In this document: in pieces, positions 37,619 through 42,824 of the stretch | Layout: each line of letters begins with the position of its first letter | Numbering within the stretch: position 1 is the first letter of the stretch | NCBI GenBank assembly: GCA_947449255.1 | Contig: CANFQX010000001.1 | Location: 186,001-250,000 of the forward strand | Direction: 5' to 3' | Length of the DNA stretch: 64,000 bases | Source of the DNA: Pseudobdellovibrionaceae bacterium | Lineage (GTDB): Bacteria; Bdellovibrionota; Bdellovibrionia; Bdellovibrionales; Bdellovibrionaceae | Made by a program: the position numbers and the translations under genes | Notes under the pieces: model-generated | Databases searched by the model: none | What the model saw: the letters and a program-made list of their open reading frames with translations, nothing else | Told to the model about the DNA's origin: nothing

Positions 37619-38191
37619 TTAATTATTGAGCGCAAATTCAAATTTTAGATTCTTTTGATCCAACCGCACACGCTCAGTATTATAATCTGTTACAATATTT
37701 TTAGCTCTCTCTGAAAAATATTTTTCCTTCGAAGCACTTTCAATACTTCGTTGGGTGACTGACAGCGATAAAAGATAATCACTTTTAAGAAGCAGGTTTT
37801 GAAATTCAAATTCCCTAAATCTTGGAAACATTCCAAATTTGCGATGACTCCGAAAGAGTGCACTCATGCGGGACAAGTGCAGCATCAAATCATCTGCATA
37901 CTCTTGCTTCAATCGATCATCATCAATATGGTCCAGCCATTTTTTGAGTGGACTCAAGGACATCATATGAAGCAGCTTACCCGACTTCTTATCCAGGCGA
38001 TCTGCGATATCGGTCGCCGCTTGAATGTCGCTCTGAACTTCAACATCGGTGGCCATCCTTTGAATAGCGGAGACAATCTGGGGCTGCGTCATATTGAGAT
38101 TTTTAACAGCCTTAGCTGCAAAGGCCATTTTCATATCCATCAAACTTGCTAAAAGCGAGATGACAAACAATATAAGAATAAACTTTCTCAT
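37619..38191 (-). CDS. Secreted helical protein of unknown function
   Basis: A 190-residue exported protein. From the ATG at 38191, which has AGGAG seven bases upstream, it starts MRKFILILFVISLLASLM, a signal peptide, then a helical, charged domain (DIQAATDIADRLDKKSGKLL, DRLKQEYADDLMLHLSRMSA). A longer frame from 38251 lacks a Shine-Dalgarno. No family recognised. It converges on prpC and is divergent from the large secreted protein at 38416. Confidence 0.65.
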   Translation of the reverse strand: MRKFILILFVISLLASLMDMKMAFAAKAVKNLNMTQPQIVSAIQRMATDVEVQSDIQAATDIADRLDKKSGKLLHMMSLSPLKKWLDHIDDDRLKQEYADDLMLHLSRMSALFRSHRKFGMFPRFREFEFQNLLLKSDYLLSLSVTQRSIESASKEKYFSERAKNIVTDYNTERVRLDQKNLKFEFALNN

Positions 38192-38415
38192 CAATAAACT
38201 CCTGAATGAACTTATAAGATTCAAAATGCTTCCTGATAACTCCATATTCAAAGTTCGTGCCTGATGGACTATTTAAAACTTTTCAATTTTCTTTACACAG
38301 CACTGACAATAATTGGCAAAGCACAGCCTCTCGTCTCATTTTAATACGATCATAACGAACTCATTGGTTTTGGCTGGCTTCAATCTTGAAGATCAATTGA
38401 ATTGAGGAGATCTTC

Positions 38416-41295
38416 ATGAAAAACACTCTCTTAAAATTAGGTATGGCTTTTATCCTGACCTCTAACTATGCTAGCGCGCAGACCTTCACTCCCCAATCTC
38501 CAGCGGGAAGGACTGGTCCAGGCCTTGATCTTGAGGCCTATGAAGTCTTCTATAGCATGTTAGATCAAAGCATCGACCTCACCGCCCGAGAAATCAATGT
38601 CCTCGGAACAAACCGCCAGGTGCCTGTCAGCTTTGGCGCTGAAAAAGAAGGCTCATCATCAAAAATTCTGAGAGTCATGTCGCCATCTAAAAATTATTTT
38701 CGTCAGCAATTGTCATCTGGGCCTATTGAACTGACAACTTGGCTTATGAAAGGTCTTTCTAATGGCAGCGTCTTGATTCAAACACCCATCAAGGACAGCG
38801 ACGGCAACCTGATCAAATTGAATCATGAGGCCTTATTAAAAATAAAACAAATCGACTGGACAAAGTTTGAAAATCAACCCATCGACAGATGGGGACGCAT
38901 TGAAGACAGCGCCCTATGCAATGAGTTCTTAATTGGCATCAAAATCTTAGATGAGCTCTTTCCAGAATCCCCCTTTTCCTTTTTGAAAAAGGAAGTTCGC
39001 AAAGAACTGTGGAGTCGCCAGGACAAATATAACGATAAAATGTTTGGCAGCTACGACAGCTGGGTTCCGCTTTATGGTGATCCGCAAAAATACATTGAAC
39101 ACGGCCACAAAGAGCTCAACAAAGGCTGGGAAGTGATATTTAAGCCCCAAAACTCCTATGCTGATTTTGAAAATCAGATGAAATGGTTTCAAACTCTCAT
39201 GGGCACAAAGACTGAACTGTTTGAGGCTCCAGGACATCAACGAGTCGTGATGCCGATGATTAAGCTTTTACCGGAAGAAGAAAAAATTTATAAAGGTAAA
39301 GTCGGCGAAGTCAGCCGAATGATATTAGCCTATTTGGTTCTTCGTGGATTAAAAGGTGAAACAGGCCTTTTAGGCGGAAAACATAAAAAAATTCCGACGG
39401 AATACGCGCTCGCGGAACTTTCATCAGGACGAGGGCCTATTCGACTTGAAAAAAATCGCTTTTATAAAAACAGCCTGGGAGTCGAATTTAGAACAGGTAT
39501 GAAAGATGAAGTTGTACGAAGATTTGTTCACGCCGTTTATGTCTCAAGACTGGCGACAAATGATATGAAAGACATCAAAAGCATCTCTGATTGGAAATTG
39601 ATTCCTGCCAATTTTTATGGGCTTAAAGGCGCTGACTTTTTAGTCTCAGATGAAACACTAAAAAAAGCTCTAGCCAATTGGACAACTGTCACAGTTGGGA
39701 AACAAAATGATAGTCGCCAACTAGGTTATGAATATCTTTTGCCACTCTGGCATTGGCAAAATGCCCCCTTCACACAAGGCAAAAAAGAGGAATTGCAGCG
39801 CTTAAGTAAAGAGTTTATTGAAAAGCTCTCAAGCATGGAGAATCCTTCTTACAGATCTATTTCAAAATTGATGAGCAGCTGGGTGACCGGTTCAAATCTA
39901 ATCGCTGACATCGAAAATTATATTACGCCCAAAAAGTCTTTTGATCGTGTCAGCTCACCTTTGACTGTCGATATTAAAGGCGGAGGCATCGATGTGAACA
40001 AGATCGATTTAGGAAATGAATTTACGGCTCGAATGCCTCTCAAATTAAAGGCTGAGCACAATTCACAAGGTCAATGGACCCAAACGACCTTTGATATGAC
40101 GCCCATTGAGCGTGAAGCTCGGATTAAGGCTGTTGCCGAAACTCTGCAAGAGCAGTTCACAGGTTCAAGAGAAAATGTCACACGCTTAGACTCTGGCTCT
40201 CACGGGCATAACCTCAGCATTGCCTATGAGCTTAAAGATCATTTAGCAAGAACCTGGAGAGTCGAATGGGACGGCGTCGGTCGTGATTACGATGCCGACG
40301 GAAACATTCTGGAAAACACCGCCCGTGGTGGACATATAGAAATCGTTTCGCCAAAATACAATCCAGGACTTGAAGAGATCAAAGCTGTTTACAACATGAT
40401 GGAATTGGAATCCCTGGTTCCGGATTATAAAATGGGCGGATCACATATCAATATTGATTTTGAGGTCTTTGAACAAAATCCCAAAGCTTTAGCAAGATTT
40501 TTGACCCTTTTTCATCAGCATCGCGGCATGATCTCTTTCATGTTTCAGCACATCAATCGACTTCGCTCGGCTGAACCTGTTGAGGTTTCAAAAAATTTGG
40601 ATTTGCGATTAAGAAACTTTGATGGCAATCAAGCTGAACTTTCTCAACTGCTTTACAATGAAAAATATTTTAACTCGCGACAAAACAGAAAGACCAGATA
40701 CACGCAAATAGATGTTTCAAATTATATGGGACAAGTTATCCCAGAACAATTTGTGAAGCCCGATTTCGATGTGGTCAAATCACGATTCACTGGTGGGGAT
40801 GGTTGGTCCAAACAATTCCGCGTGACTAAGCACAAGAAATTAGAATTTAGACTTTTTGATGCCGCCAAGGATTCTCTTGAGGCCGCTTTGCAGATAAAAA
40901 TTGTTAGAGGTCTTTTGAATAAAGCCTTAAATGAAACCGATGGTTTGCAACTTCCCGTTCAAGCCGTTGATCACGAGGCCTATGTGAAGAATCCACAAAA
41001 AGCTTACCGTGACCTGACAACCTTAGTGAATGAGTTGGGACTGAATTATGCGGACTACAGTCCTTACGTGACAAACAAGCTCGTCATCAATGGGGCCTTT
41101 ATGCAGGGGAAATACTATGTGAATTGGTTAACTCGAGCTAATAAAGAATTCCCTAAAACTGAAGGCTGGGGAAAAGCCCTTTCACAAGAAAGAACCGGCC
41201 AAGATATTTGGTATTCAGACTCAGTCAAAACATCTAAGATCTCTGCACCGGTTGTGGGTGGAAGGTGTGAGCGGGTGTTTACTTTGGGGATGTAG
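38416..41295 (+). CDS. Large secreted amidoligase-like protein
   Basis: A 959-residue exported protein (signal peptide about 1-21, cleavage near ASAQ). The last 400 residues have the layout of the amidoligase (COOH-NH2 ligase) family: W-R-V-E-W-D (about residue 614), GGHIEIVSPKYN (about 638-649), GGSHINIDFEVF (about 674-685) and KKLEFRLFDAAKD (about 807-819). The N-terminal 550 residues are unassigned. Amidoligases form amide bonds using ATP, which makes an exported copy odd; it may instead bind peptides. Shine-Dalgarno GAGGAGAT. The stop is five bases from the convergent lipoprotein gene. Confidence 0.65.
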   Translation: MKNTLLKLGMAFILTSNYASAQTFTPQSPAGRTGPGLDLEAYEVFYSMLDQSIDLTAREINVLGTNRQVPVSFGAEKEGSSSKILRVMSPSKNYFRQQLSSGPIELTTWLMKGLSNGSVLIQTPIKDSDGNLIKLNHEALLKIKQIDWTKFENQPIDRWGRIEDSALCNEFLIGIKILDELFPESPFSFLKKEVRKELWSRQDKYNDKMFGSYDSWVPLYGDPQKYIEHGHKELNKGWEVIFKPQNSYADFENQMKWFQTLMGTKTELFEAPGHQRVVMPMIKLLPEEEKIYKGKVGEVSRMILAYLVLRGLKGETGLLGGKHKKIPTEYALAELSSGRGPIRLEKNRFYKNSLGVEFRTGMKDEVVRRFVHAVYVSRLATNDMKDIKSISDWKLIPANFYGLKGADFLVSDETLKKALANWTTVTVGKQNDSRQLGYEYLLPLWHWQNAPFTQGKKEELQRLSKEFIEKLSSMENPSYRSISKLMSSWVTGSNLIADIENYITPKKSFDRVSSPLTVDIKGGGIDVNKIDLGNEFTARMPLKLKAEHNSQGQWTQTTFDMTPIEREARIKAVAETLQEQFTGSRENVTRLDSGSHGHNLSIAYELKDHLARTWRVEWDGVGRDYDADGNILENTARGGHIEIVSPKYNPGLEEIKAVYNMMELESLVPDYKMGGSHINIDFEVFEQNPKALARFLTLFHQHRGMISFMFQHINRLRSAEPVEVSKNLDLRLRNFDGNQAELSQLLYNEKYFNSRQNRKTRYTQIDVSNYMGQVIPEQFVKPDFDVVKSRFTGGDGWSKQFRVTKHKKLEFRLFDAAKDSLEAALQIKIVRGLLNKALNETDGLQLPVQAVDHEAYVKNPQKAYRDLTTLVNELGLNYADYSPYVTNKLVINGAFMQGKYYVNWLTRANKEFPKTEGWGKALSQERTGQDIWYSDSVKTSKISAPVVGGRCERVFTLGM

Positions 41296-42299: not shown

Positions 42300-42824
42300 T
42301 TAATTCCCGCGCGCTGGCAAGCTCTCAATATATTCTTCAGGTAAACAAGCCTGTTTTGCTCCTCGCACGAGGGCCTTGATATAATCTTCACTCACGGGTC
42401 CCAAAAGGCTGGCCCGTGCAGGAGCGGTCGTGAAAGCAATCGCTTCAATTTCTCTGTCGCCAGACTTCACTTTAACCACACGTTCAATCGACATTCCAGT
42501 CACAACACCTTCTTTGTGTTGCACCACGGGCCAATCCTTGACTGGTATTTCAAACAACAAGCCAAAGACGGAACTTCCTGGTTTGTCCACCAAGCCGGCC
42601 ACTCGACCTCCCCACCAACGAGAAGGAAAATCAAAGATAAGATCGATGCCTTCAGCACTGACAACTTGGCCTTCGGGCAGTTTGAAAAACTCATAGGAAT
42701 GCTCCAACCGCCACTGATTGAATGCCTCTGTATCTAAGACGCCTGAATAAGCAAAGTAGAGTTTTGTTCCCTGCTCCGTCACGTCTTCTCTTGCTTTCAT
42801 CACTTTGGAATAATGTGCATCCAT
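42300..42824 (-). CDS. Gamma-glutamylcyclotransferase-like (GGCT) family protein
   Basis: A 174-residue cytosolic protein. LYFAYSGVLDTEAFNQW (about residues 22-38) corresponds to the substrate loop (YFAYGSNL in most members), and VVQHKEGVVTGM holds the likely catalytic Glu. Such enzymes release 5-oxoproline from gamma-glutamyl amines or peptides. The loop differs from consensus, so the substrate is open. It follows phnA by nine bases on the same strand, with a GGAG Shine-Dalgarno (AAGGAGA) before the ATG. Confidence 0.75.
   Translation of the reverse strand: MDAHYSKVMKAREDVTEQGTKLYFAYSGVLDTEAFNQWRLEHSYEFFKLPEGQVVSAEGIDLIFDFPSRWWGGRVAGLVDKPGSSVFGLLFEIPVKDWPVVQHKEGVVTGMSIERVVKVKSGDREIEAIAFTTAPARASLLGPVSEDYIKALVRGAKQACLPEEYIESLPARGN

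Follow-up and report, generated by a model that had tools for sequence, protein, structure and literature searches.

Ligases of the glutamine synthetase (GS) type normally need ATP and work inside the cell, and one would look for ATP-dependent ligases only in places that hold ATP. Among the described systems closest to the gene analysed here are clusters in phages, for instance LUZ24-like phages, in which an amidoligase gene occurs together with amidotransferase and ATP-grasp genes. For UFV-P2, ORFs with PF12224, GATase_6, ATP-grasp and AIG2 are listed (PMC3890496), and a role in cell-wall modification has been suggested for genes of this kind (PMC10580990, citing Iyer et al. 2009).

The window, a stretch of 64,000 nucleotides, is part of C1 (positions 186001-250000) in the 3.21 Mb assembly of a Pseudobdellovibrionaceae bacterium. 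One of its genes encodes a protein that seems to combine an amidoligase domain with a second GS-type domain and a signal for export (Table 1). Its composition is ordinary (42.4% GC, against 42.5% for the window).

Table 1. Features of the gene, with positions in the window and the basis of each assignment
Feature	Position	Strand	Basis
Whole gene: amidoligase-like protein of 959 aa, putatively exported and tandem GS-fold, ATG start	38416..41295	+	ORF list, Pfam PF12224, model
Ribosome-binding-site-like GAGGAG, 6 bases 5' of ATG	38404..38409	+	read directly
Predicted signal peptide of the Sec type, residues 1-21 (ASA, then Q)	38416..38478	+	sequence, crude rule, relatives' N-termini
Predicted N-terminal GS-type domain, residues 36-514	38521..39957	+	own model; VIA-align rows GS-fold
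E76-K77-E78, first-strand E-x-E	38641..38649	+	alignment (invariant, 45/45)
E239	39130..39132	+	45/45 in N-half alignment A4; 38/45 in full-length alignment A2 (divergent rows aligned differently)
G273-H274-Q275	39232..39240	+	alignment A4 (G and H invariant, Q 41/45)
E357-x-R359	39484..39492	+	alignment (invariant, 45/45)
C-terminal GS-fold / Amidoligase_2 domain, residues 515-902	39958..41121	+	Pfam, model, structure comparison
G533-N-E535, first-strand motif with single Glu	40012..40020	+	E535 in 45/45; position 537 S in 32, T in 13
H596-G-H598, low-confidence loop (595-597 pLDDT <50)	40201..40209	+	model and alignment (invariant)
WRVEWDG, residues 614-620	40255..40275	+	alignment (E617, D619 invariant)
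GGHIE	40327..40341	+	alignment (E642 invariant)
GGSHIN	40435..40452	+	alignment (H677 45/45, N679 44/45)
E810-x-R812	40843..40851	+	alignment (44/44)

Export signal and distribution of the family

Read by eye, the signal peptide would be cleaved between MKNTLLKLGMAFILTSNYASA and the following Q. A clear signal peptide had been claimed in the earlier note, and a Sec signal peptide is indeed recognised both by eye and by a crude and permissive rule for hydropathy and cleavage, which the protein passes narrowly (1.93, with a threshold of 1.9); most of its relatives carry a signal peptide or a lipobox too. Four of the 51 family members are open at the 5' end, and 38 of the other 47 pass the same rule (32 as signal peptides, six with a lipobox), a rule that is loose, as it also scores 219 of 444 control ORFs from these loci as signal or lipobox. 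Of the nine members that fail, six (L084, L087, L091, L092, L094 and L106) have a lipobox-like Cys by eye, L124 is a narrow miss, and L098 and L118 show no signal or lipobox. When nine typical amidoligases were put through the rule, the outcome was 'none' for eight and 'TM?' for one. Export of the window protein is supported by its sequence, and what strength the claim has comes from N-termini that are consistent across a divergent family, not from the rule.

Relatives of the full-length protein are found in 59 of the 368 genomes of the phylum, its own genome included. The other 23 genomes of its genus all lack the family, so that the gene is accessory in the genus and not core to predation. 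In three neighbourhoods from the same genus (L161-L163), the flanking genes, for citrate synthase and for a protein of 210 aa, are near each other, and no tandem gene is present. The 210-aa protein itself, encoded beside the window gene at 37619-38251 (- strand) and apparently exported, has relatives in 23 of the 24 genomes of the genus, its own included.

A scan of the contigs of 84,980 species gave 51 family loci, and their titles, where informative, name Bacteriovoracales, Bdellovibrionales, Oligoflexia and Silvanigrellales; a locus titled Lysobacteraceae (L120) seems to come from a genome that is placed in the phylum (G319). In the scans made, the family is limited to Bdellovibrionota, and the contig scan, which relies on a pair of short peptide patterns, may miss remoter relatives. 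No relative of the protein was found in a scan of viral contigs, NCBIfam and PHROGs gave no family for it, and a sequence search of the PDB returned nothing useful.

The family is diverse in sequence as well as in length. Its 45 aligned members diverge down to 23% identity, keeping the catalytic-type residues of both halves. Some members reach 1800-2127 aa through a helical C-terminal extension, which HEAT_2 matches in one case, below the cut-off (E 4e-4), and the member in L081/L045 has an exported N-terminal extension of ~440 aa (L081:6624-7940, + strand) with no Pfam match over the cut-off. The motif HSQN...FRDLGD in this extension is perhaps reminiscent of siderophore-synthetase-like ligases. 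As a separate observation from another genome of the genus, a 1078-aa protein with a predicted export signal (L180:7818-11051, + strand) carries a weak Amidoligase_2 match (E 2.7e-4, just under the cut-off) and HEAT_2, and would be one more type of exported amidoligase-like protein.

The two halves of the protein

The earlier note had quoted the series W-x-V-E-W-D...GGHIEIVSP...GGSHINID...KLEFRLFD as amidoligase-like, and had suggested a profile search and a structure prediction to follow it up. All of these motifs are present in the order quoted (GGHIEIVSP at residues 638-646, GGSHINID at 674-681 and KLEFRLFD at 808-815), and their invariance argues against chance. E617, W618, D619, G620, E642, G674, G675, H677 and D681 are identical in 45 of 45 aligned family members, as are E535 and R715, and R758, K759, E810 and R812 are kept in all 44 members with a residue there. 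Over the whole C-terminal half, 34 of the 353 scored columns are invariant, those of E535, E617, E642, H677, R715, R758, E810 and R812 included.

Both of the suggested approaches point the same way. The Pfam family Amidoligase_2 (PF12224) matches residues 570-710 with 27.7 bits, above the curated cut-off of 22 (E 3.2e-6; profile positions 16-146 of 245), it is found at E 0.01 in 34 of the 45 family members, and hhalign of the C half with the Amidoligase_2 profile agrees (probability 86%, E 5e-6). Amidoligase_2 is also the only family that appears in a Pfam scan of the window protein to E 10, with no match to the glutamine synthetase or Dop-PafA profiles. The model of the full-length protein has high confidence (pLDDT 88.6, pTM 0.87), and VIA-align finds GS, YbdK and Dop for its C half at Z 12.5-14.6, with 246-276 residues aligned at 7-16% identity and the rows of YbdK and Dop falling within residues 528-902. 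At the top Z of 14.6 (265 residues aligned, 4.3 A), the C half of the model has the GS-type fold of COOH-NH2 ligases; Foldseek finds a GS-family enzyme at E 5.9e-4, and the top BFVD matches are phage or viral amidoligases (E 1e-6). I consider the GS-type fold of the C half practically certain.

One feature of the typical Amidoligase_2 members of the phylum, which is not a curated requirement of the family, is absent from the C half: instead of E-x-E, the first strand has E535-x-T/S537 in 45 of 45 members. Because Thr or Ser replaces the second Glu, the C half may lack one metal ligand, if the residues map as I infer from the sequences. The loop with H596-G-H598 could, to judge from the model, be a mobile lid.

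What the earlier note had described as an N-terminal part of 550 residues of unknown nature is not a separate add-on, since the whole stretch from about residue 40 to 925 is conserved across the family, and to judge from its model and residue set it is probably a second GS-type domain. Modelled alone (residues 36-514, 45 sequences), it reaches pLDDT 93.2 and pTM 0.91, and all 50 rows listed by VIA-align are GS-fold proteins, Dop and YbdK among them, over a span of 8-478 of 479 residues. The best Z is only 7.1, and the tool warns that values <8 may mean merely a common arrangement; in Foldseek, GlnA is best at E 0.014, with HMG-CoA reductases, many of which are listed, close behind. In the N half, 12 of the 387 scored columns are invariant (E76, K77, E78, E239, G273, H274, E357, R359, G361, R378, W447 and P505). 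Six of these, E76, E78, E239, H274, E357 and R359, fit a GS-type site: invariant in 45 of 45 members, they follow each other on successive strands (E76/E78 on 72-79, E239 on 238-242, H274 on 274-280, E357 on 353-358, with R359 just after). As I take it, the residues that bind metal and nucleotide in GS (E129/E131, E212/E220, H269, E357 and R359) follow one another in the same order.

Comparison by hhalign gives no link between the profiles of the N half and the C half (probability 0.2-0.3%) or between the N half and the Amidoligase_2 profile of the phylum (0.1%), and a Pfam scan of all 45 N halves to E 10 returned scattered weak matches only. As none of the sequence-profile methods detects it, the GS-type assignment of the N half is drawn from structure and residue pattern, which make a GS-type domain, though a very diverged one, quite likely. 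The window protein is probably a two-domain enzyme, as its N-terminal part most likely forms another GS-type domain, with catalytic-type residues of its own.

Gene neighbourhoods

In 15 loci, mostly from Bacteriovoracaceae, the family gene comes after a gene for an exported protein of ~300-370 aa. An exported Cys/His protein is encoded near the family gene in 15 loci, divergently at -2 in 14 of the 15. This neighbour (L075:5492-6619, - strand, with its relatives in alignment A3) has the motifs QENAGSC, WH and YVRDS and looks papain-like by eye, its best PDB profile match being falcipain at an E of only 0.1. A Peptidase_C1-type protein lies at +1 to +3 in six loci (PF00112, checked on L089), and in six loci of a divergent clade the gene that comes next encodes a subtilase (PF00082, checked on L117 and L121).

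An exported BPL_N gene, class-I-amidotransferase-like, adjoins two of the 51 family loci, convergently in L081 and downstream in L113. As relatives of BPL_N occur in 72 of the 368 genomes, it seems unlikely that it neighbours two of 51 loci by chance. The same type of gene is directly beside four of the six exported genes of the Amidoligase_2-R2K ATP-grasp type (L034, L164, L166 and L170); it is not beside L168, and L165 ends at the contig end. This shared partner suggests a tie between the family of the window gene and a group of exported proteins of ligase type. The window's own genome has one gene of this group, its second amidoligase (L034:7143-9605, + strand, on C15), whose product has a signal-like N-terminus, Amidoligase_2 and R2K ATP-grasp; it is followed by genes for an exported BPL_N protein and for Amidase_3, an N-acetylmuramoyl-L-alanine amidase (Pfam checked on L034). 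For the action on wall peptides that the earlier note suggested, the one link is this amidase neighbour, which accompanies another exported amidoligase of the genome and not the window gene.

Two further genes of the own genome may be mentioned here. A second BPL_N relative (G000:C1:72211-72876, - strand) has 46% identity and one in-frame TAA. An AIG2_2 gene (gamma-glutamylcyclotransferase-like) is found near the tandem gene at 42300-42824 of the window (- strand); it was considered as a partner, since AIG2 genes are found in phage amidoligase clusters, and rejected, as one gene intervenes and no export signal is seen by eye.

Proposed function and comparison with known systems

The reading that I favour is a Sec-exported chain of two GS-fold domains (COOH-NH2 ligase superfamily), each with its own set of metal and nucleotide residues, in which ATP would activate a carboxylate that would then be joined to an amine or to ammonia, forming an amide or isopeptide bond. 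Its substrates would be peptides of the predator envelope, or of the prey envelope when the predator occupies the prey periplasm, where it may meet prey nucleotide, and the nucleotide would be taken from the prey. Computation establishes the export signal, the family and the predicted GS fold of the C half, and it supports, short of proof, a GS fold of the N half; beyond this I infer two active sites, ligase chemistry, a peptide or wall substrate and the use of prey nucleotide; that the protein is an exported two-domain amidoligase making amide or isopeptide bonds on envelope or prey peptides is, in my estimate, an evenly balanced proposition. I know of no ATP source outside the cytoplasm here. 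The NTT nucleotide transporter (PF03219), searched for as a marker of external ATP, is not found in the own genome, and most of the NTT matches from other families are weak and partial, so that the idea of external ATP gains no support from them. A very strong NTT match in an incomplete assembly (G078:C221:3-1418, L154; E 3.9e-180) is unlike the rest of the phylum and possibly a contamination.

Alternatively, the protein could be an exported GS-fold hydrolase similar to Dop, which would use a nucleotide cofactor and cleave isopeptide or amide bonds, dismantling modified or cross-linked peptides. This is the strongest of the rival readings, though I hold it to be unlikely. Dop is described as a GS-fold deamidase and depupylase working with ADP and Pi (PMC7947786), and both halves match it in structure (the C half 5lrt at Z 12.5, the N half 4b0r at Z 6.4); the exported proteases that neighbour many family loci (the Peptidase_C1-type protein, the subtilase and the Cys/His protein) are also consistent with such a role. 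However, nothing in its sequence links the protein to the Pup ligase/depupylase family, Amidoligase_2 being its sole Pfam family, and a hydrolase of this kind would likewise need a nucleotide outside the cytoplasm.

Two other explanations appear to be less probable still. The 'derived peptide-binding domain' considered in the earlier note would imply a former enzyme that no longer catalyses and now serves on the surface in peptide binding or as a structural protein. This would be in line with a periplasm that is not expected to hold ATP, with the lack of the second Glu of E-x-E in the C half and with the helical, HEAT-like solenoid extensions of some members. What speaks against this reading is that the catalytic-type residues, in both halves, are (near-)invariant across the 45 members, beyond what binding alone would require. 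I give a similarly low weight to the possibility that the C half alone is a genuine enzyme of the GS fold, the N half being an accessory domain, unrelated to it, that merely resembles the GS arrangement. The Z of 7.1 is within the range that the tool reports for models without a clear match, and profile comparison links the N half with neither the C half nor PF12224. Against this, the 50 rows listed are without exception GS-fold, Dop and YbdK included, even though Foldseek listed many HMG-CoA reductases, and half of the few invariant residues are the GS-type set in GS order.

An exported two-domain ligase remains the preferred reading. In these scans the family is confined to a phylum in which predators are known to live in the periplasm of other bacteria, and as apparently exported proteins that retain their catalytic-type residues despite large divergence, its members offer a definite starting point for asking whether ligase chemistry is carried out by predators on prey material, outside the predator cell. 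It may also bear on how prey wall material changes during intraperiplasmic growth, for which L,D-transpeptidases are an existing explanation. In a far-reaching version, which I regard as speculative and improbable, predatory Bdellovibrionota would secrete a class of ATP-using peptide ligases, comprising two-headed GS-fold proteins, amidoligase-ATP-grasp fusions and exported amidotransferase partners, that would remodel prey peptidoglycan or proteins with nucleotide from dying prey. If true, this would mean ligase chemistry performed outside the producing cell.

With respect to known systems, the C half resembles Amidoligase_2 (PF12224) in its match over the gathering cut-off, in the EIVSP motif and the His/Asn strand after it, and in the GS fold of the model. 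In contrast, the 11 strongest Amidoligase_2 members of the phylum are single-domain frames of 314-365 aa, nearly all without a signal peptide, whereas the window protein is apparently exported and has a probable second GS-type half. The Amidoligase_2-R2K ATP-grasp protein of the own genome is similar in that it, too, has a putative export signal and combines PF12224 with a second domain of an ATP-dependent ligase type, and a BPL_N partner is common to it and to two tandem-GS loci; its second domain, however, is ATP-grasp and not GS-type, and a phmmer search with it against the fetched loci listed no tandem-GS protein. Glutamine synthetase, YbdK and PafA/Dop share the fold, as judged by structure comparison with predicted models, but identity is 7-16% and the window protein has no Pfam match to their families. 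In the literature on amidoligases in Bdellovibrio, on PF12224 and on exported or secreted ligases, as far as the searched sources extend (subscription papers being mostly outside them), no exported or two-domain form is described. The genes of the phage clusters are listed as separate ORFs, whereas the window protein seems to unite two GS-type domains in one exported chain; clusters of amidoligase, amidotransferase and ATP-grasp genes are known from phages, and what is new here, within the literature searched, is the apparently exported and probably two-domain form.
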